In this document: in pieces, positions 4,176-16,900 of the stretch
How positions within the stretch are numbered: position 1 is the stretch's first letter
How the letters are laid out: every line of letters starts with the position of its first letter
Virus record (IMG/VR): IMGVR_UViG_3300031566_000441
Coordinates: 1 to 21,141 of that record
Strand: one strand, 5' to 3'
Length of the DNA stretch: 21,141 nt
DNA from: a virus
The notes under the pieces: model-generated
What the model was told of the DNA's origin: nothing
Database searches by the model: none
What the model saw: only the letters and a program-made list of their open reading frames with translations
Made by a program: the position numbers and the translations under genes

Positions 4176-4616
4176 ATGAAGAAGTTTTTGGTCTTGATGG
4201 GCCACAAGGGCCTCCTGTGCGGAGACCCGCGGAACCCAACCAGGTATCTGGCGCAGCGCAAGCTGAGCTGGGCAGACGGCGAGATGCCCAAGCAGATGCA
4301 TGAGCGCTACGAGCCGATCGTGCGGGCATACCCGTACCATCGTGAGCTCTTGCGCCTCGACGCCAAGAACAACCTGACGAGCTTCGGGATGGTTGAAGCT
4401 GATAGCGCTGAAGAGGCTATCGCCAAGTTGCCTGAGGCCAAGAGGGCCTTCGACCTGTTGGCCGTCGCGTCCAAGGCAAAGGCTGATGCTGCTGCCAAAG
4501 CAAAAACTGTGGTCGAGCCTGCGCCAGCCGCGCCGTCTGTCCCACTCCCCAAGCCACCCGCTCCTCCCAGTAGGGGCAGTAGCAAGAAGACCTCAAGCGA
4601 GGGTGACGACCGATGA
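4176..4616 (+). CDS. Small protein with Ala-rich helix and Pro-rich tail, function unknown
   Basis: This 146-residue protein has a compact basic N-terminal part (MKKFLVLMGHKGLL, then RYLAQRKLSW). A helical middle contains SAEEAIAKLPEAKRAFDLLA. After about residue 98 it becomes low-complexity: Ala/Lys repeats, then a proline-rich run and a Ser/Lys/acidic end. It has its own strong ribosome-binding site and overlaps the sheath start by ATGA. The location just before the sheath corresponds to Mu gp37/gp38, but I see no sequence motif that proves equivalence. The disordered tail could be a docking segment for assembly. Confidence 0.65.
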   Translation: MKKFLVLMGHKGLLCGDPRNPTRYLAQRKLSWADGEMPKQMHERYEPIVRAYPYHRELLRLDAKNNLTSFGMVEADSAEEAIAKLPEAKRAFDLLAVASKAKADAAAKAKTVVEPAPAAPSVPLPKPPAPPSRGSSKKTSSEGDDR

Positions 4617-6469
4617 CTCTACCTGGAATCGATCCACTGGATCCAACGCCGCGCACGGCTCGAAACCTGATCTTCGGGGCTAGTCCTGGTGGTTCAGGCA
4701 CCGCTCGAGACGTGTTGCTGTACGGCAACAAAACTGCTGCAGGCACGGCCACGGTAGACGTGATCGGAGACGTCATCGCAAGTGATGCTGATGCGAGTAA
4801 CCGGTTCGGCCCGCGCAGCGAGCTCTACCGCATGTATCGCTCCTACGTGGCCATCGACAAGTCGGCCAGCATCTATGCCGTCGCGATTCCTGAATCAGCA
4901 GGGACTGCAGCAAGTTGCATCCTGCGAGTGAATGGAACCTCGGACGCGACCACAGAGGGCACTGTCACGATCCTGGGTGAGAACATCACCTTCACAATGG
5001 TCAGTGGAGACACGGACCAGGAGACGGCCGAGTCTATCCGTGACGCCATCAACAACTACGACGAAGGTCGTCTGCCCCTGTCTGCTGCGTCAGCACAGAA
5101 CGGCAGCGATTGGGATGTCACGCTTACCGCGGCCAACAAGGGGCCTCGGGGTGACTTCGTCATCGGGAATACGGCCAAGCGTGGTGTTCGCATCAGTCTC
5201 AAAACGAGCACTGGGACGAACGCTCAGACCATCGTCAAGAAGACCTTCATCGCTGGTGCTACCGGTGATGATGCGACGAATGCGATTCTGGCGGCCAGCC
5301 AGGACGAGAAGTACTACCACATCGCACCGTTCCACACGGACAACGGCGCTGGTGCATCCGCAACGTACGCGGACGCAGCTGGCACCAGCATCATCTTCGC
5401 GGATGTCGACCCGGACACGATCACTCGTGATAGCTCGAGTTGGATTACCGACGGCTACGTCGCTGGTATGTCGATCTCCATCAACAACTCGGTGAGCAAC
5501 GATGGTGTCTACCTCATCAACTCGGTGAGCGCGCTTGTCATCACTCTCGATCCGAACGAGAAGCTGACTGCTGAAACGCTGGCAGCTGCCACGCTTACCT
5601 CGACAGGTAAGTTCGGGCTCGGGGCTACCACTGCGGTCTCCCCGTCTGACAATCAGATGGGAGAGCTCGTCGACATGATCAAAACGCAGGCAATGCCTGT
5701 GAACGGGAAGTCGCAGATTGCGATCTTCGGTCAGGTAGGCACCAACTCGCAGGCAATTGCCGTCCCCACGGACAGCGACGTCAACAGCGTTCGAGGGTTC
5801 TACTACTGGGAAGAGAACAGTGATTGGACACCTGGGATGCTTGCCGCATATCACGGCGCTATTCACCGTTCTGGTCAGATCGCTCATCCGAGCAAGAACC
5901 TCGCAGGATACACGTCGACAGACAACACGTCGTACGCTGTTCCAGCCCCGTTCGACGTCAACGACCGGCCTACCGATACCGAGATCAAGGTGGCGCTCAA
6001 CAATGGTGTGAGCCCCATCAAGACAAGCGCCAATGGGCGCACGTCCTTGGTCCGACAGGTCACCTCCCGAAGCGAGAGTCCTACTGGAGACAAGGACTAC
6101 CGCGCTCGATCCGCACATATCACTTCGGCGGTCGACTTTTTTTGGAGCGTCGTCGAAACTCGCTGGGAAGCTCAGAAGCAGGAATTCGTGGCAGGTGATC
6201 CTGCTGAGGGCGAGCTCCCCACGCTCAACACCACCATCCCACGCTCCGTGGCTGCCATGGTGAAGAAGGTCATCGACGACCTGTCTGGTAGCAAACCGCT
6301 GGGCATCTACAACGGGCCAATCCTCGCTCCGGACATGAGGCAGAAGATGAAGGACAGCGTGATCGCAACGAAGATCCCAGCGGGCATCAATGTCTCGTCT
6401 GAGGTTATCGCCGTCCAGCATCTCTACAAATTCGAGGGCGAGTTCCTCGAGACGGGGGAGGCATACTAA
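4613..6469 (+). CDS. Tail sheath protein, Mu gpL-like, with an inserted beta domain
   Basis: This 618-residue protein should form the contractile outer sheath around the tube. The N-terminus (FGASPGGSGTARDVLLYG) and the segment after residue 100 (small beta domain ending in KGPRGDF) follow the gpL pattern. The C-terminal about 130 residues carry the conserved sheath region: a helix with FFWSVVETRWEAQKQEF, a helix around AAMVKKVIDDLSG, and final strands ending in KFEGEFLETGEAY. Residues about 266-332 are an extra beta domain shared with the spike-base paralogue. GAGGG at 4599-4603 gives a plausible ribosome-binding site. The start overlaps the upstream stop by ATGA, and the tube gene follows after one base. 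Confidence 0.88.
   Translation: MTLPGIDPLDPTPRTARNLIFGASPGGSGTARDVLLYGNKTAAGTATVDVIGDVIASDADASNRFGPRSELYRMYRSYVAIDKSASIYAVAIPESAGTAASCILRVNGTSDATTEGTVTILGENITFTMVSGDTDQETAESIRDAINNYDEGRLPLSAASAQNGSDWDVTLTAANKGPRGDFVIGNTAKRGVRISLKTSTGTNAQTIVKKTFIAGATGDDATNAILAASQDEKYYHIAPFHTDNGAGASATYADAAGTSIIFADVDPDTITRDSSSWITDGYVAGMSISINNSVSNDGVYLINSVSALVITLDPNEKLTAETLAAATLTSTGKFGLGATTAVSPSDNQMGELVDMIKTQAMPVNGKSQIAIFGQVGTNSQAIAVPTDSDVNSVRGFYYWEENSDWTPGMLAAYHGAIHRSGQIAHPSKNLAGYTSTDNTSYAVPAPFDVNDRPTDTEIKVALNNGVSPIKTSANGRTSLVRQVTSRSESPTGDKDYRARSAHITSAVDFFWSVVETRWEAQKQEFVAGDPAEGELPTLNTTIPRSVAAMVKKVIDDLSGSKPLGIYNGPILAPDMRQKMKDSVIATKIPAGINVSSEVIAVQHLYKFEGEFLETGEAY
5408..5608 (+). other. Mobile beta domain, copy 2 (in tail sheath)
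   Basis: Sheath residues 266-332 contain TITRD at 269-273, W277, VSNDGVYLI from 294 and ALVITL. They match copy 1 in the spike-base paralogue at about 32 of 67 positions by eye. In the folded sheath, such an insertion would most likely project from the outer surface. Confidence 0.75.
6454..6461 (+). promoter_or_regulatory. Shine-Dalgarno sequence of the tail tube gene
   Basis: GGGGGAGG lies inside the last codons of the sheath gene, with the nearest bases about 9-10 nt before ATG 6471. It decides that start over any earlier in-frame codon, since the frame is open upstream to about 6390 inside the sheath gene. Confidence 0.65.
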
Positions 6470-10665: not shown

Positions 10666-11564
10666 TGCAGGAAGTCGGCACACCACCCAACATCATCACC
10701 GGGCTACCAACGCTCGAGTGGCGTGAGATCTTCGACATCCCTCCGTACGAGATGGCGAACTTCAGTGGTGGTTGGCAACTGTCAGAATCCGACTTTCCTT
10801 ACGTTGATGGTGTGGCTCACGACAACATGGGCGCGCTGCCTATCGGGATGCCGTTCAGGCTGATGTTCGTGAATACGCTTCAGAAGGACGCCTTCCCGAA
10901 GATCTTCACAGAGTGGGCGAAGTCCATCATCCAAGACCCATCTCCAGGCCGCCTGCAGCACCCAGTGCTCGGTGTGCGAGACGCCTACGTGCAGAGTTGG
11001 GAGGTTGAGGTTAACGCCAAGATGACCGGTGGTGTCATCATGAACGTTACCTGGGTCGACACGGTTCTCAACACTGATGACCTGAAGACTTTCGATGGTG
11101 TGAGGGTGAGCGCCAAAGGGCTGTCGAAGAAGATCGACGACGACCTAGCGATCAAGGGCTTTGATTACCCGACGGGTCTTCGCACCACCAACCTCTTCGA
11201 GCTCATTGCGCAGATCGACTCCCTGGCTTTCCAGTTCAAGACCCGCGTGCAGGGCCTAGTGAACCAAGCGCTTGGAATCATCCAGTCGATTATCGAGAAG
11301 GTAGAGCGTGCCAAGGACAACGCCAACTGGGCCCTGAGCTTCAACCTCAAGACCCTGCACAGCGCAATCAAGGCGGTGGCTAAGCCTGTAGCTCGAGCCC
11401 CGCTGCGACGTACTGGAATCACCTTCACAGACAGTTTCACGACGCTCAACGAGATAGCCAGCAAAGTGGGCAACACGATCGGTGAAGTCATCGGGCTCAA
11501 CCCAGAACTTTTGAGCCAACCAGCCGTGCCTCCGAAAACGCCAGTGGTGTACTTCACCGAATGA
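10665..11564 (+). CDS. Mu gpN-like (DNA circularisation N-type) baseplate protein with LysM-like C-terminus
   Basis: The N-terminal half of this 299-residue protein matches the gpN pattern: a beta start, YVDGVAHDNMGALPIGMPFR, then a helix with IFTEWAKSI, PGRLQHPVLGVRDAYVQSWE, and a strand pair around GGVIMNVTW. In Mu relatives this protein links tape measure and hub at the tail tip, despite the 'DNA circularisation' family name. After a helical middle (residues about 180-245), residues 256-299 look like a LysM or gpX-type module: TLNEIASKVG, LNPELLSQP, and PPKTPVVYF. LysM-like modules bind peptidoglycan or serve as tail-tip adaptors. Junctions are TAATG upstream and ATGA downstream. Confidence 0.72.
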   Translation: MQEVGTPPNIITGLPTLEWREIFDIPPYEMANFSGGWQLSESDFPYVDGVAHDNMGALPIGMPFRLMFVNTLQKDAFPKIFTEWAKSIIQDPSPGRLQHPVLGVRDAYVQSWEVEVNAKMTGGVIMNVTWVDTVLNTDDLKTFDGVRVSAKGLSKKIDDDLAIKGFDYPTGLRTTNLFELIAQIDSLAFQFKTRVQGLVNQALGIIQSIIEKVERAKDNANWALSFNLKTLHSAIKAVAKPVARAPLRRTGITFTDSFTTLNEIASKVGNTIGEVIGLNPELLSQPAVPPKTPVVYFTE

Positions 11565-12844
11565 CAGAATCGAAGCGTGGCCGCGTAACCATCCAAGACA
11601 GCAATGGAGACGTGTTCGACAACTGGTCGACGTTCTCCATGACGGAGACATACGACGACCCGTTGGGCTCTTACGAATTCACGATTCGCCCATTGCGTAA
11701 GGACGTTCGAGAGGTTCAAGCGAGGTTTCAGAAGGGTGAGTTGGTCTCGATTAAGATCGACGACAACCCCAGAGCTACTCCTAGCATCATCACCGTAAAG
11801 ACCTCGCTCTCCAAAGGCGGCGGTGTGGAGATGACGGTGTCATGCAAAACTGTTCTGCATGTGGCAACCCAAGCAAGCGCTGATCCTGAAGCTTTCGACA
11901 AGGCACCAGCTGACGTTCCAGTAGACGAGATCGTCATCAGAACCCTATCGCCGTTCGGGTTTACGCACATTGGAACCGACTTCAAACGCCACACGGAAGT
12001 GGTTCTTGGGAAAGCCGTAGCGGGGGACAGCGCAACAGTTAGTCTTCTCGACCTGAAGGCCAAAGAACTGAAGGTGAACGAGAACGAGGGGGCCTACCAG
12101 TACTGCTCCAGGATCTTTAGCCGACTTGGGTATGCCCTCCGTGTCGACGAGAGTGGCATCTTGATTCTTGGATCACCTAACTACTTTCAGGAGCCATCTT
12201 ACTCACTGGTGGAAGACTATGTCGGCACTAGAGTGGGAGCCAGAGCCGGAGATAAGGCGCTGTCCCTTGAGCTCAGCGAGACCAACGACCAACAGTTCTC
12301 CAAGGTCGTCGTTCGAGGCAAGTCTGAAGAGAAGCGCAAGAAAAAAGCCACGACCAAGCCTCAGGCCGCAACCAGGCTCAGTCGACTAACTGGCAGATTC
12401 GCGAACGCAGAGATGGCTGAGGCTGCTCAGGGCACGTACGACATATATTCAGCCAAGCAGCCTTTTGGAGAAGCCGTAGAGGAACTGATCGACCCTAGGC
12501 AACCGTACTACACCTCAACCATTCAGCCATTTAAGCCGAAGTATATCAACGATCGCTACTCGAGGGACAACGACAAGTGCAACGGGTTCTGCATCCTTGT
12601 GCACGCGAAGCCTTCTGTGAATGCATTCGTTGTTACAGCCACCGTCGATGGTATCGTGTCCCACAGCACTGGTGCAATCTGGGCGATCGACACCATCTGC
12701 TCGGTGTTCAGCGACACACTTCTCATCGAGGATGACATGTGGGTTTACGAGGTGAGCATGAAGGTGGCAAAAAAAGGCGGCGCCAGAACAACGCTCAAGC
12801 TTTTGCCGGTTGGGTCTCTCGTGATAGGTGACGTCCCAGGATGA
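11561..12844 (+). CDS. Baseplate hub protein, Mu gpP / gp27-like
   Basis: This 427-residue protein has the hub layout. The N-terminal barrel domain has a signature around SFSMTETYDDPLGSYEFTI and KGELVSIKID. A central linker contains the helix YQYCSRIFSRLGYALRVDE followed by a strand with GILILGSP, a common hub motif. Residues about 235-265 form a basic stretch (SEEKRKKKATTKP) with low complexity. The C-terminal domain repeats the barrel and ends in LLPVGSLVIGDVPG. The hub forms a trimer that joins the tube to the spike. ATGA overlaps on both sides tie it to the gpN-like gene and the following protein. Confidence 0.8.
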   Translation: MTESKRGRVTIQDSNGDVFDNWSTFSMTETYDDPLGSYEFTIRPLRKDVREVQARFQKGELVSIKIDDNPRATPSIITVKTSLSKGGGVEMTVSCKTVLHVATQASADPEAFDKAPADVPVDEIVIRTLSPFGFTHIGTDFKRHTEVVLGKAVAGDSATVSLLDLKAKELKVNENEGAYQYCSRIFSRLGYALRVDESGILILGSPNYFQEPSYSLVEDYVGTRVGARAGDKALSLELSETNDQQFSKVVVRGKSEEKRKKKATTKPQAATRLSRLTGRFANAEMAEAAQGTYDIYSAKQPFGEAVEELIDPRQPYYTSTIQPFKPKYINDRYSRDNDKCNGFCILVHAKPSVNAFVVTATVDGIVSHSTGAIWAIDTICSVFSDTLLIEDDMWVYEVSMKVAKKGGARTTLKLLPVGSLVIGDVPG

Positions 12845-13632
12845 TCTTCACAGACTTTCTGTCGTTCCGAGCTCGGTGGGCAAAGCTTGCTGTCCCACCT
12901 GTTGCCGTACAGGTAGACTTCCTCGCCCCCAACAAGATCACGCGGCTCACTGACGAGTGGAACGTGGGCAGCAACCCCTTCTATCCCGTGCTCGAGCCTG
13001 GCATGAAACTGGTGATGGTTGGCAGCGCCTCCGGAAACGATGTCTTCACGATCGGAAGCTTCTCTACCGACTTCCTGATGCTTACAGAGGAGTCAACCGT
13101 TGTGACCGAAGCTGGCGTCACGCTGACGACTATCGAGGGGAAGTTTTTCGACAAGGACGGTCACGAGACGTGGCCCGTTGAGTATGTGCGTGTGGGTGAC
13201 ACAGCAGTGGCCTTCGATAGCAGTTTGGCAGTTGAGTACACATTGCCAGAATTGGCAGCCTTAGGGCCGTTCAAAAACAACCCCTTCAACGGAAGTTCGG
13301 TACGGTTTAGCGCTACAGCTGGTGTTGTGGCTGACTCGGTGTTCGGTGTTGATGAGTACGACTGGTACCTGTCCCAAAGAACAGATGACCCAACTAAGCA
13401 GTACCTAGCCATGTCTCAGGAGCCTAGTGACAGCTCCTCGTATAGTGGGACAGTCCAAATTGTCCCCACGACCCTTGCTACCACCAAGTTTGGGTTCACC
13501 ACTGCCCCTGGTGACCCGATCGATCCTAGTACCACACGCATTCTCTTCCGGAGTGTGGACCTGTACGTCAGACGCATCTCTGACCAGGCAATCCAGAGAC
13601 TCAACCTACTGAACACGTACCTCGGTCTCTGA
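12841..13632 (+). CDS. Accessory baseplate protein with a copy of the shared beta domain
   Basis: This 263-residue protein lies between hub and spike and has no counterpart at this position in the Mu order that I know. Residues 31-100 resemble the mobile domain of the sheath and spike-base paralogue: N-K-I-T-R at 31-35, W at 40, GNDVFTI from 65, then FLMLTEE and a second acidic turn. The rest is beta-rich, with two stretches of Ser/Thr/Asp and a Tyr-rich middle (DEYDWYLSQR). The C-terminus is a helix (DQAIQRLNLLNTYL). ATGA and TGATG junctions fix it in the operon. It may decorate or bridge the hub; function is unknown. Confidence 0.65.
   Translation: MIFTDFLSFRARWAKLAVPPVAVQVDFLAPNKITRLTDEWNVGSNPFYPVLEPGMKLVMVGSASGNDVFTIGSFSTDFLMLTEESTVVTEAGVTLTTIEGKFFDKDGHETWPVEYVRVGDTAVAFDSSLAVEYTLPELAALGPFKNNPFNGSSVRFSATAGVVADSVFGVDEYDWYLSQRTDDPTKQYLAMSQEPSDSSSYSGTVQIVPTTLATTKFGFTTAPGDPIDPSTTRILFRSVDLYVRRISDQAIQRLNLLNTYLGL
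12931..13140 (+). other. Mobile beta domain, copy 3 (in accessory baseplate protein)
   Basis: Residues 31-100 of the 263-residue protein carry the same ordered features as copies 1 and 2 (xxITRx, W, G-x-hydrophobic strand, ND-V-F/Y, strand, acidic E-x-E region). About five extra residues sit between ITR and the ND motif. Similarity is weaker and is based on order of features more than on identity. Confidence 0.5.
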
Positions 13633-14291
13633 TGCCCAACTTCGATACATCTGACATCCTAAACCTGACCACCGAAGATGGCGAGGTGCGTGTCGATCTT
13701 GGTGATATCAGGACGGGTAAAGGGATCTCAGCAGAGTCTGTCACATGGGGGTCAGATGGATTCATCTCCGTACCAAACGAGCCAGACAACTCCACCAAGG
13801 AGTGCGCTCGAGCTCTCTACTTCGACGACGGGTATGAGAGGATCGTCATTGGGACATACGACGCCAGGTACGCAGAGCAGGTGGGATCTTTAGAGAGCGG
13901 CGACCGCATGATCGTCAGCAAGGGAGAGCAGCGACTCCTGGCCAAACAGTCCAATGAGTCCATCACGATGTACTCGAAGAACCAAGTCACCGGGAGCAGC
14001 ATGATGGTCAGCGTGCACGGTGAGGATGGCGCGATCCTGATTGTGAACGGCAAGTCCTCCATCCAGATCCTAGACGACAAGATCGTTTTCAACGTGGCGA
14101 ACAAGTCGTGGATCGAGATCAAAGAAGAGGGTGTTGTCGTAGGTGGTGGCTCGTGCACCTTGGCGTGCCCAAAGGGTCAAATCGGAGCCCCAGCCCCTGG
14201 CGTCATCCTGCCTCCTGGGGCTTTCTCAATCCTCTACGGGGTCACTGGCATGGCTGGCGTTGGCAGCTTGAACTGGACCGTTAACGCGTGA
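13632..14291 (+). CDS. Baseplate spike / central puncturing protein, Mu gp45-like
   Basis: At 219 residues this protein has a beta-rich N-terminal part with a GDRMIVSKGEQRLL segment, typical of the OB-fold edge of gp45-type spikes. This is followed by short repeats that look like a beta-prism (MMVSVHGEDGAILIVNG, then IQILDDKIVFNV, then WIEIKEEGVVVGGG). The C-terminus is Gly/Pro/Ala-rich and does not show the His-x-His iron site of some spike tips. It follows the hub and accessory protein. Its stop is shared with a GTG start (GTGA) for the unusual proline-rich gene. Length is close to Mu gp45. Confidence 0.7.
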   Translation: MPNFDTSDILNLTTEDGEVRVDLGDIRTGKGISAESVTWGSDGFISVPNEPDNSTKECARALYFDDGYERIVIGTYDARYAEQVGSLESGDRMIVSKGEQRLLAKQSNESITMYSKNQVTGSSMMVSVHGEDGAILIVNGKSSIQILDDKIVFNVANKSWIEIKEEGVVVGGGSCTLACPKGQIGAPAPGVILPPGAFSILYGVTGMAGVGSLNWTVNA

Positions 14292-14605
14292 CCCTTTGCG
14301 CATTCCCTGCACTTCCACCGTTTGCGTTCCCGTCGATTCCATCGCTCCCCATACCCCCCATCCCACCGTTTCCGTTTTCGATCCCAGACATCGGCATTCC
14401 ACTCGAGCTACCATCCCTCCCAGCGTTTGCTCTGCCGCCACTGCCTCCTCTTCCCCCACTCCCGCCATTACCCTTCTCAATCCCGAACATTGGGATCTTG
14501 TTCTCTTTGCCAACTCTCCCACCGTTCGGTTTCACGATCCCAGCCTTCGCGCTCCCCCCCATCCCGCCCATCCCGTTCTTCCCCCCACCCTGTCCCCTTG
14601 ACTAG
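14288..14605 (+). CDS. Proline-rich protein after the spike, charge-poor, function unknown
   Basis: The GTG start overlaps the spike stop (GTGA) and TAG at 14603-14605 is two bases before the next ATG, so the gene exactly fills the interval. The 105-residue product has 38 prolines (36%), and the rest is almost only Leu, Ile, Phe, Ala and Ser. I count no Lys, Arg, His, Tyr, Trp, Val or Gln and only three acidic residues. It is built from repeats: SIPDIGI (31-37) and SIPNIGI (64-70), and AFALPP at 46 and 86, with runs such as PLPPLPPLPPLPP. The only cysteines are near the two ends (4 and 102). The position matches where a tip protein would be encoded. I recognise no family; a rigid polyproline rod or tip is inference. 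Confidence 0.65.
   Translation: MTLCAFPALPPFAFPSIPSLPIPPIPPFPFSIPDIGIPLELPSLPAFALPPLPPLPPLPPLPFSIPNIGILFSLPTLPPFGFTIPAFALPPIPPIPFFPPPCPLD
14291..14600 (+). repeat. Pyrimidine-rich repeat tract encoding the proline-rich protein
   Basis: The + strand is strongly C/T-biased throughout, with many runs of CCC and CTCC. Two blocks about 99 nt apart encode the repeated SIP(D/N)IGI segment, and a third block near 14543 repeats the AFALPP start. The mirror strand would read as Gly-rich in every frame. The skew explains the many overlapping false reading frames in this interval. Confidence 0.65.
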
Positions 14606-14607
14606 CC

Positions 14608-14937
14608 ATGCCCCTCGACTCCACAGCAGTCACAATCGCTGACGACGGTACTGAGACGCTCCCATCCGACTCGATGGCTTCAGCTATCTACAGTGGCATC
14701 AAGGCTAGCGTGGAAGCGGCGTTCGGGCCATTCCAGACTGGCTCAGCTGGGGCCGCTGCGCTCAGGGGGATTGCTGCTACCGCCAACGGCATCGCTGCTG
14801 GCGTAGTGAGTGACATCAAGGCGAACGCTGACGTGGTGATCGGGACAGGGGTAAGTGGTTTGCAGAAGTCGACCTCCCTTGGCACTCCCACGAGTGCGCC
14901 AGACACTGAGCAAACTATCACCGGGGGTATCAACTGA
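14608..14937 (+). CDS. Small Ala/Gly-rich baseplate-region protein, function unknown
   Basis: This 109-residue protein begins MPLDSTAVTIADDGTETLPS. Its middle is a pair of Ala-rich helices (AIYSGIKASVEAAFGPF and AAALRGIAATANGIAAG), with a Thr/Ser-rich C-terminus. It starts 2 nt after the proline-rich gene and ends at a TGATG junction with the gp46-like gene. The helix pattern would suit a small bundle protein or assembly factor. I recognise no family, and the Mu order has no gene here that I can match. Confidence 0.65.
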   Translation: MPLDSTAVTIADDGTETLPSDSMASAIYSGIKASVEAAFGPFQTGSAGAAALRGIAATANGIAAGVVSDIKANADVVIGTGVSGLQKSTSLGTPTSAPDTEQTITGGIN

Positions 14938-15335
14938 TGGCTTACCCGAAGGGTGCGTACGAGAACCACGATAGGCTGCCCGTGCCAGAGCGCCCGCAGT
15001 GGGGGCCGGCTCGTAAGATCAACTTCAACACAAAGCGCTACGTCATCAAGGCAAACGGTAGCCTCGATCACATGCCACCCATCGCGCAACGCGTTGTGAT
15101 TCTCGTTCTCAAAAATGAGATCAACCCAGAGACCAACACGCTGGTGAACAGGAACCAGTGGGCGCAAGGCGTAAGGAACACGTTGTCTCCTCTCGAGCGA
15201 GAAACTCCCCCAGCTATTCGGCTGATTAGTGTGAGCGCTGAACCCAACGGGGTGGATGGCGTCACGAAGACAGTCATCTTCAAAGACTTGGGCACCCAGG
15301 CGTCCGAGCCTCCGATTGAGGTACAGATCCCGTAA
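14937..15335 (+). CDS. Baseplate protein, Mu gp46 / gpW-gp25-like position
   Basis: The 132-residue product precedes the J-like gene, the place of gp46 in Mu and of gpW/gp25 in other contractile phages. It has a basic start, then the strand and helix RYVIKANGSLDHMPPIAQRV with VILVLKNE. This fits the gp46 pattern in which a short strand leads into a helix carrying a Q-R/V pair. The second half (RLISVSAEPNGVDGVTKTVI, ending EVQIP) supplies the closing strands. The wedge proteins join the hub to the outer baseplate. The family call leans on position as much as on residues. Confidence 0.6.
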   Translation: MAYPKGAYENHDRLPVPERPQWGPARKINFNTKRYVIKANGSLDHMPPIAQRVVILVLKNEINPETNTLVNRNQWAQGVRNTLSPLERETPPAIRLISVSAEPNGVDGVTKTVIFKDLGTQASEPPIEVQIP

Positions 15336-16900
15336 TGGCCACACCGCGCGTCGACAATCTTTTCTACCCGTCGCCCGACGAGTCGTTGGCAATTGCGCTG
15401 ACCAGCGTTATCTACTCGTATGACAGGAACAACATCGAGGTCAACGTGTCTGAGGGCACGGAGATTTTCGAGAGGTTCAAGGCTTTTGCCAATCTCGCCT
15501 CGGTAGCCATAGCCAACAACGAAATCGCCCTCGAGGACGTGTCGCCGCTCGATGCCGTCGGAGAAGCGCTTACCGAACTGGCCGGGACCTACGGAGTGTT
15601 TGCCCGCCCAGCAAGCTCCGCGGCAGGATCAGTGTTCGTTGGTGTCACAGGCGGCGGCACAGTGGCTATCCCACAATCGTTCGTGGGAACAAGCGCCACT
15701 GGTATACAGTACAGCGCCACAGTCGGAGGGGTGGTTGGCGACGGTGACCCTATCGCTGTCCAGTCAATCAGCGCTGGGGCCGGCACGGACCTCGAAGAGG
15801 GTGACAAGATCACCTGGGATTCAGCCGCTATCGGAGCTCTCGACCAGGTTGCTACAGTAGCTCAAGGTGGGATCACTGGCGGCGCCGCAGCCGACGGCGA
15901 AGAAGATGTACGCAGACGGCTTCTGATTCGTCTCAGAGCTCCAAGCGTAGGTGGAAACGCTGCCCAGGTTTCAGACTTCGCGGAGGGCGCCTCAGCAGCC
16001 GTAGAGCGCGGGTTCGTCAATATGGCTGTGCGAGGTCCATCTTCGTACGACGTCGCCATCACAAGGCCAACTGGTGATCGTGTGCTCAGTTCAGTAGTGG
16101 TAAACAATGTGGCCAACACGGTCATTGGTCAGATGCCAGGTAGTGCTGACCTCAACGCCACAAGCGTCATCCCCCAGTACGTTGACATCATCATCAACAC
16201 CACTCTGCCGCTACCTGTTGGGGCTGGAGGAGCTGGTGGTGGGTGGCGTGACCAAGTTCCTTGGCCCAGCACAGCTGAGGCTGTGGCTAACACCTACGCA
16301 GAGGTCACAGCCGTAAACGTGGTAGCCAGTACCATCACGGTGAACAGTGGCGCTGCGGATGTCCCAGCGGTATCTCAGAGGTTTCAGATCTGGGACCCAG
16401 CGCCAACGATTCCTGTGATGCATGAATTCACAATCTTGGCAGTGACAGGAAGTGCTGGTGCTTGGGTGATCGAGGTAGACACCTCCACCTCTTCATCCTT
16501 GGGGTTTATCAACCTGTCAACGACCGCCTACTTCTGCTCTGCATCTGCAGTAAACCTCGGAGAGTACGCATCTGAGTTTCTAGCAGCTGTGCTGACGCTT
16601 GGCCCAGGTGAGAAGACATCAAACATCGACAAGCTACCTCGAGCTTTGCGTCAACCAGGGCCAGACGTAGAGTTCCCCATGAACCTCACATCCTTGCAAC
16701 TCACAGCCGTCACGAATGCGCACCCGGAGATTCTCGACATGACCTACGCAGCGCGAATTGTCCCTGGAACCAGCGCAGCGGCTGCGGGATGGTCGGGGAC
16801 CTTCACGCCGAGGGTGTCACCTGACGTAGCAACGATCGAAACGGACCCTCCGAACATCTTGGTGTTGCGGTCGCTGTCGTTTCGTAGGCAGGTGATCTGA
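15335..16900 (+). CDS. Baseplate wedge protein, J-like (Mu gp47), with an internal insertion
   Basis: This 521-residue protein carries the Baseplate_J pattern. It has an N-terminal helix (IFERFKAFANLASVAIANNE), a middle beta domain with TVAIPQSFVGTSATGIQYSA, and the diagnostic segment GGAAADGEEDVRRRLLIRLR. That is followed by a helix and VERGFVNMAVRGPSSYDVAI. After the strand QYVDIIINTTLPL, about 110 residues (roughly 295-406) are inserted before the family continues (ASEFLAAVLTLGPGE, DKLPRAL). The insertion is beta-rich with STITVN and HEFTILAVTG segments. Junctions are TAATG and TGATG. J proteins form the ring that triggers sheath contraction. Confidence 0.85.
   Translation: MATPRVDNLFYPSPDESLAIALTSVIYSYDRNNIEVNVSEGTEIFERFKAFANLASVAIANNEIALEDVSPLDAVGEALTELAGTYGVFARPASSAAGSVFVGVTGGGTVAIPQSFVGTSATGIQYSATVGGVVGDGDPIAVQSISAGAGTDLEEGDKITWDSAAIGALDQVATVAQGGITGGAAADGEEDVRRRLLIRLRAPSVGGNAAQVSDFAEGASAAVERGFVNMAVRGPSSYDVAITRPTGDRVLSSVVVNNVANTVIGQMPGSADLNATSVIPQYVDIIINTTLPLPVGAGGAGGGWRDQVPWPSTAEAVANTYAEVTAVNVVASTITVNSGAADVPAVSQRFQIWDPAPTIPVMHEFTILAVTGSAGAWVIEVDTSTSSSLGFINLSTTAYFCSASAVNLGEYASEFLAAVLTLGPGEKTSNIDKLPRALRQPGPDVEFPMNLTSLQLTAVTNAHPEILDMTYAARIVPGTSAAAAGWSGTFTPRVSPDVATIETDPPNILVLRSLSFRRQVI
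16217..16555 (+). other. Inserted beta region within the J-like protein
   Basis: Residues about 295-406 begin with a Gly-rich linker (GAGGAGGGW) and contain STITVN, RFQIWD and HEFTILAVTG followed by WVIEVD. The order (strand, 'F/V-x-I' strand, 'I-x-A-V' strand, 'I-x-V-D' strand) resembles the shared beta domain, but identity is too low to claim common origin by eye. Confidence 0.4.

Follow-up and report, generated by a model that had tools for sequence, protein, structure and literature searches.

Contractile tails need a sharp spike end, and the known solutions are PAAR-type caps or a metal-bound apex on the spike itself. PAAR proteins (PF05488; T4 gp5.4 and the PAAR proteins of the T6SS) are small proteins of about 100 aa encoded with the spike, and one cone-shaped PAAR chain caps the VgrG spike trimer (PMC11883445). 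PAAR proteins have threefold pseudo-symmetry and zinc at the vertex. PIPY domains (DUF4150, PF13665) are PAAR-like T6SS tips with a hydrophobic core and a Pro-aromatic motif in place of zinc, and T6SS tips such as PIPY use dedicated chaperones (PMC11883445). PIPY domains are often fused to toxins and paired with DUF2169. In the other arrangement the spike is its own tip, as in P2 gpV, Mu gp45 and Milano gp27; these spikes carry an HxH iron site near the C-terminus (PMC10811340 for Milano). Here we examined a small proline-rich gene beside the putative central spike gene of an IMG/VR virus record, of which the whole analyzed stretch of 21,141 nucleotides is referred to as the window. The window carries major head protein, tail sheath, tape measure, hub and J-like wedge genes, and the phage thus has a contractile tail. 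Features of the window are listed in Table 1.

Table 1. Features of the window around the proline-rich gene, with the basis for each assignment.
Coordinates	Strand	Feature	Basis
14288..14605	+	Pro-rich three-repeat protein, candidate spike tip (105 aa, GTG start)	Open reading frame and family membership
14297..14299	+	Codon of Cys4, conserved N-terminal Cys	Invariant in the alignment
14591..14593	+	Codon of Cys102, conserved C-terminal Cys of the CPLD end	Alignment and members found through the spike
14303..14401	+	Repeat 1 (approximate, residues 6-38)	Period 33 stack; weak in the window member itself
14402..14503	+	Repeat 2 (approximate, residues 39-72)	Repeat stack
14504..14602	+	Repeat 3 (approximate, residues 73-105)	Repeat stack
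13632..14291	+	Putative central spike (219 aa)	Gene order and alignment with the spikes of relatives (24% identity); no known family matched
11561..12844	+	Baseplate hub	phrog_177, E 6.5e-15
14937..15335	+	Probable gp25-like wedge gene	Position before J and resemblance by eye to the gp25-like gene after the tip in relatives; no family match itself
15335..16900	+	Baseplate J-like wedge protein	PF04865, E 5.8e-15
4613..6469	+	Tail sheath, shows that the tail is contractile	phrog_165, E 7.8e-35
12841-13632		Extra ORF (263 aa) flanking the spike-tip pair	No family matched
14608-14937		Extra ORF (109 aa) flanking the spike-tip pair	No family matched

An earlier note, made from the sequence alone, had described this frame as a 36% proline, charge-poor protein encoded directly after the tail spike, and its observation was confirmed. 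The product contains 38 Pro, K, R, H, Y, W and Q are absent, V is present only as the GTG start codon, and two Asp and one Glu are the only charged residues. The frame ends in a TAG stop, overlaps the upstream ORF by GTGA and stops 2 nt before the next ATG at 14608. The highest Pro fraction in any other 105-aa open stretch of the window is 20%, and all four Pro codons are used (CCA 14, CCC 11, CCG 10, CCT 3) with GC3 like that of the neighbors, indicating that the composition is more than chance. Other frames are also open here, so openness alone proves little, and it is the relatives that settle the matter. One point of wording differs from the note, as the upstream gene is the putative baseplate central spike rather than a receptor-binding tail spike, and it is assigned by gene order.

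Relatives were difficult to recover by protein similarity. Direct similarity searches gave only a near-identical contig (L002; L numbers denote the DNA stretches compared with the window), which provides no variation, and tblastn with the Pro-rich proteins found nothing in phages or plasmids. The latter search also missed GenBank MW202476 (L004), which does hold a member, and low-complexity filtering is therefore the likely cause. Searches of viral contigs for relatives of the 132-aa gene and of the J protein found none. In GenBank, the J protein led to MW202476, where an unannotated frame right after the spike encodes a similar protein with the same CxF start and a CPFD end. The readable frame of this member ends at 5249 and the only start codon before the Cys is a GTG at 4938, so that it probably begins MCQF; the deposited annotation misses the gene and calls an overlapping frame at 4940-5395 instead. 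DNA patterns were then used in place of similarity searches. A pattern on both ends found L006, a pattern on the C-terminal part found about 25 members in viral contigs, and a similar pattern applied to genome contigs found two true members, L056 and L071, both on contigs of metagenome bins. About 790 further genomes around these two had none. L039, a Pro-rich hit of unclear status, and L034, a cut copy like L048, were left out. In all, 34 distinct sequences were used: the window, MW202476, 30 from IMG/VR contigs and two from genome bins. The members tested match nothing convincing in Pfam, PHROGs, NCBIfam or PDB, the few weak hits being below cut-off and unrelated, and no description of such a protein was found in the openly licensed literature searched.

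Whether relatives hold an open frame at this place had been set out in the earlier note as a point that could count against the proposal, and we examined this with a scan that did not rely on the Pro-rich protein. A pattern on the upstream spike alone gave 20 stretches in viral contigs, two of which (L088 and L089) are cut at the end of the DNA. The other 18, with L083 read through L033 on the same contig, all have the Pro-rich gene next to the spike, although a few of these contigs are near-duplicates. Six are new members: L081 (ending CPFE), L082, L084, L085, L086 (ending CPFA) and L087 (CPID), and all six have the N-terminal Cys and the C-terminal CP. Among 50,697 phage records, only the metagenome-assembled MW202476 turned up through its spike. 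To test membership of the window protein directly, a profile was built from 32 other members (the window and L018 left out). The window protein scores 22.0 bits on this profile, while the best of 2000 shuffles, 1000 of them with both ends kept, is -7.2. Three close relative pairs give dN/dS of about 0.12, 0.23 and 0.13, indicating purifying selection.

Across the 34 sequences, length is 86-123 aa and Pro content is 17-36% (median 23%), the window protein being the most Pro-rich member. Trp is absent, Tyr is absent in 33, His is absent in 31, and exactly two Cys are found in 32. Lack of Lys and Arg is not a family trait, with a median of 3.5 K+R. Members typically start M[ST]xCxF or MCxF and end xCP[LF]D. 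The search patterns fixed the CP[LF]D end, so the conservation of Cys102, Pro103 and Asp105 is partly built in; the N-terminal Cys was not in the pattern and is invariant in the alignment. In L004, L019, L024, L045, L046 and L085 the usable start codon lies directly before the Cys, so Met removal could leave an N-terminal Cys.

The members are built from three repeats. The repeat period is 31-39 residues with a median of 33, and 31 of 34 sequences beat all 200 shuffles. Stacking shows three copies of xLPxIxIPxPSLxLPxLPxLPxF joined by two linkers such as TLDIDLPGL, and the two termini with their cysteines occupy the place of the third linker. A gapless position matrix finds three units in 23 of 34 and never four; the others fall short by that test, at least some because of small insertions. 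A rotation test was uninformative because of end-gap scoring. The window protein has the ends and the position of the family, but its own repeats are weak, with 12 of 300 and 4 of 200 shuffles as good.

The gene sits beside the putative spike gene in nearly all loci. In many loci it overlaps the spike stop by 4 nt and is followed, at once or after a gap, by a gp25-like wedge gene. In L011, L040 and L041 the order is hub-tip-spike, and in L022 and L056 the preceding protein is a different one. In L004, L010/L031, L035, L038, L045 and probably L021/L033, a minus-strand gene with a lipoprotein-like start (for example MRRAAILLGLIGLACGSSG, MIRRALEWFGGSVLVYVLVAACSS) is inserted right after the tip gene and before the gp25-like gene, and in L011 it lies nearby. 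This gene could encode a superinfection-exclusion lipoprotein and is not present in the window. The spikes match no known family: no Phage_base_V or Mu Gp45 match was over cut-off in 18 records, and a spike profile searched against PDB gave nothing useful, so the name "spike" rests on gene order between hub and wedge. An HxH motif near the C-terminus is lacking in 23 of 24 spikes, and the remaining one, L018, has HGH about 75 residues or more from its end.

Known tip families were also sought. The PAAR profile matched 0 of 28 records, with the control detected in three genomes, and the PIPY profile matched 0 of 18 records, with the control detected in three. Many of these records are fragments, so a PAAR elsewhere is not excluded. 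The DUF4280 profile (PF14107) also gave 0 of 18, but here the control was silent, which leaves the presence of this domain undecided; five members gave no hit to it in a Pfam scan. AlphaFold, run on two alignments, gave no usable model (pLDDT 65 and pTM 0.14 for the window protein, pLDDT 43 for L045), and no fold search was run.

Taken together, the data suggest that this protein most likely caps the membrane-facing end of the trimeric central spike, doing the job that PAAR proteins do elsewhere, and we place the probability of this reading at roughly 0.58. One chain with three Pro-rich repeats could offer three near-equivalent faces to the threefold spike. Because the termini fall at the third repeat junction, each with a conserved Cys, a disulfide or a shared metal could close the repeats into a rigid cone that would enter the envelope first when the sheath contracts. 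This is an argument from layout and not from a structure. What the analysis itself establishes is a real, conserved gene, its three repeats and two end cysteines, its constant adjacency to one spike family, the lack of a PAAR match in the contigs, and spikes without a terminal HxH apex. That the neighbor is the spike, that this protein sits on it, the pseudo-threefold shape, the disulfide and the piercing role are inferred; no proteomic data were examined and binding to the end of the spike trimer was not assayed. A more far-reaching version, held only tentatively and judged less likely than not, is a third kind of cell-piercing tip: a single three-repeat proline-based chain closed into a pseudo-threefold ring by a bond between its end cysteines, needing neither PAAR zinc nor the HxH iron site, and used by a broad set of mostly uncultivated contractile-tailed phages. 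A third solution of this kind, missed because the gene is short, low in complexity and filtered out by similarity searches, would fill a gap in many phage baseplates and show how a monomer can be matched to a trimer by internal repeats.

The interpretation offered in the earlier note is partly supported. It suggested a membrane-piercing tip, a hinge or an assembly factor, and of these "tip" is the best; piercing, hinge and assembly roles are untested. Its statement that the protein is not PAAR is supported, and the conserved end cysteines make its proposed link between the ends plausible. The stiff polyproline rod it favored is not supported, as the lower Pro content of relatives and their three repeats with Asp/Leu-rich linkers point to a pseudo-threefold cap. 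Its description of the phage as Mu-like is right for gene order only.

The best rival, although unlikely, is a spike-specific assembly factor or chaperone that holds the end of the spike trimer during folding and is not kept in the virion. Strict pairing with one spike gene would suit a dedicated chaperone equally well, as would the small size. However, three repeats match a trimer as a structural cap, no other candidate tip gene is seen at these loci, and the spikes lack an HxH end. Slightly less likely is another structural baseplate part, an extended hydrophobic Pro-rich rod, hinge or plug lying along or inside the spike or hub rather than on its end. High Pro and hydrophobic content, the extended low-confidence models, and the three loci where the gene lies between hub and spike are consistent with this, but in most members Pro and Phe are phased with the threefold repeat, with Asp-bearing linkers, and adjacency follows the spike whichever side it is on. 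That the ORF is an accident of C-rich DNA, suggested by the other open frames, is refuted by 33 relatives at the same locus, purifying selection, tight gene junctions and a profile score far above shuffles.

Spike tips as such are already known; what is new here is an unnamed family, with its role unproven, that may work like PAAR but is not a PAAR by sequence. Like PAAR proteins, its members are small and encoded with the putative spike, but there is no sequence match in either direction and no PAAR motif. With almost no His there is no His-rich zinc site, although metal binding by the two Cys is not excluded, and Pro-phased repeats and two end cysteines are found instead. From PIPY domains the family differs in having no profile match and no PIPY motif as a defining element; fusion to toxins and pairing with DUF2169 were not seen, although DUF2169 was not searched for. 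With P2 gpV, Mu gp45 and Milano gp27 the putative spike shares its place in the baseplate operon, in the order hub, spike, gp25-like wedge and J-like wedge. Those spikes carry their own HxH iron site near the C-terminus, whereas the spikes here lack it near their ends and have a separate partner gene.
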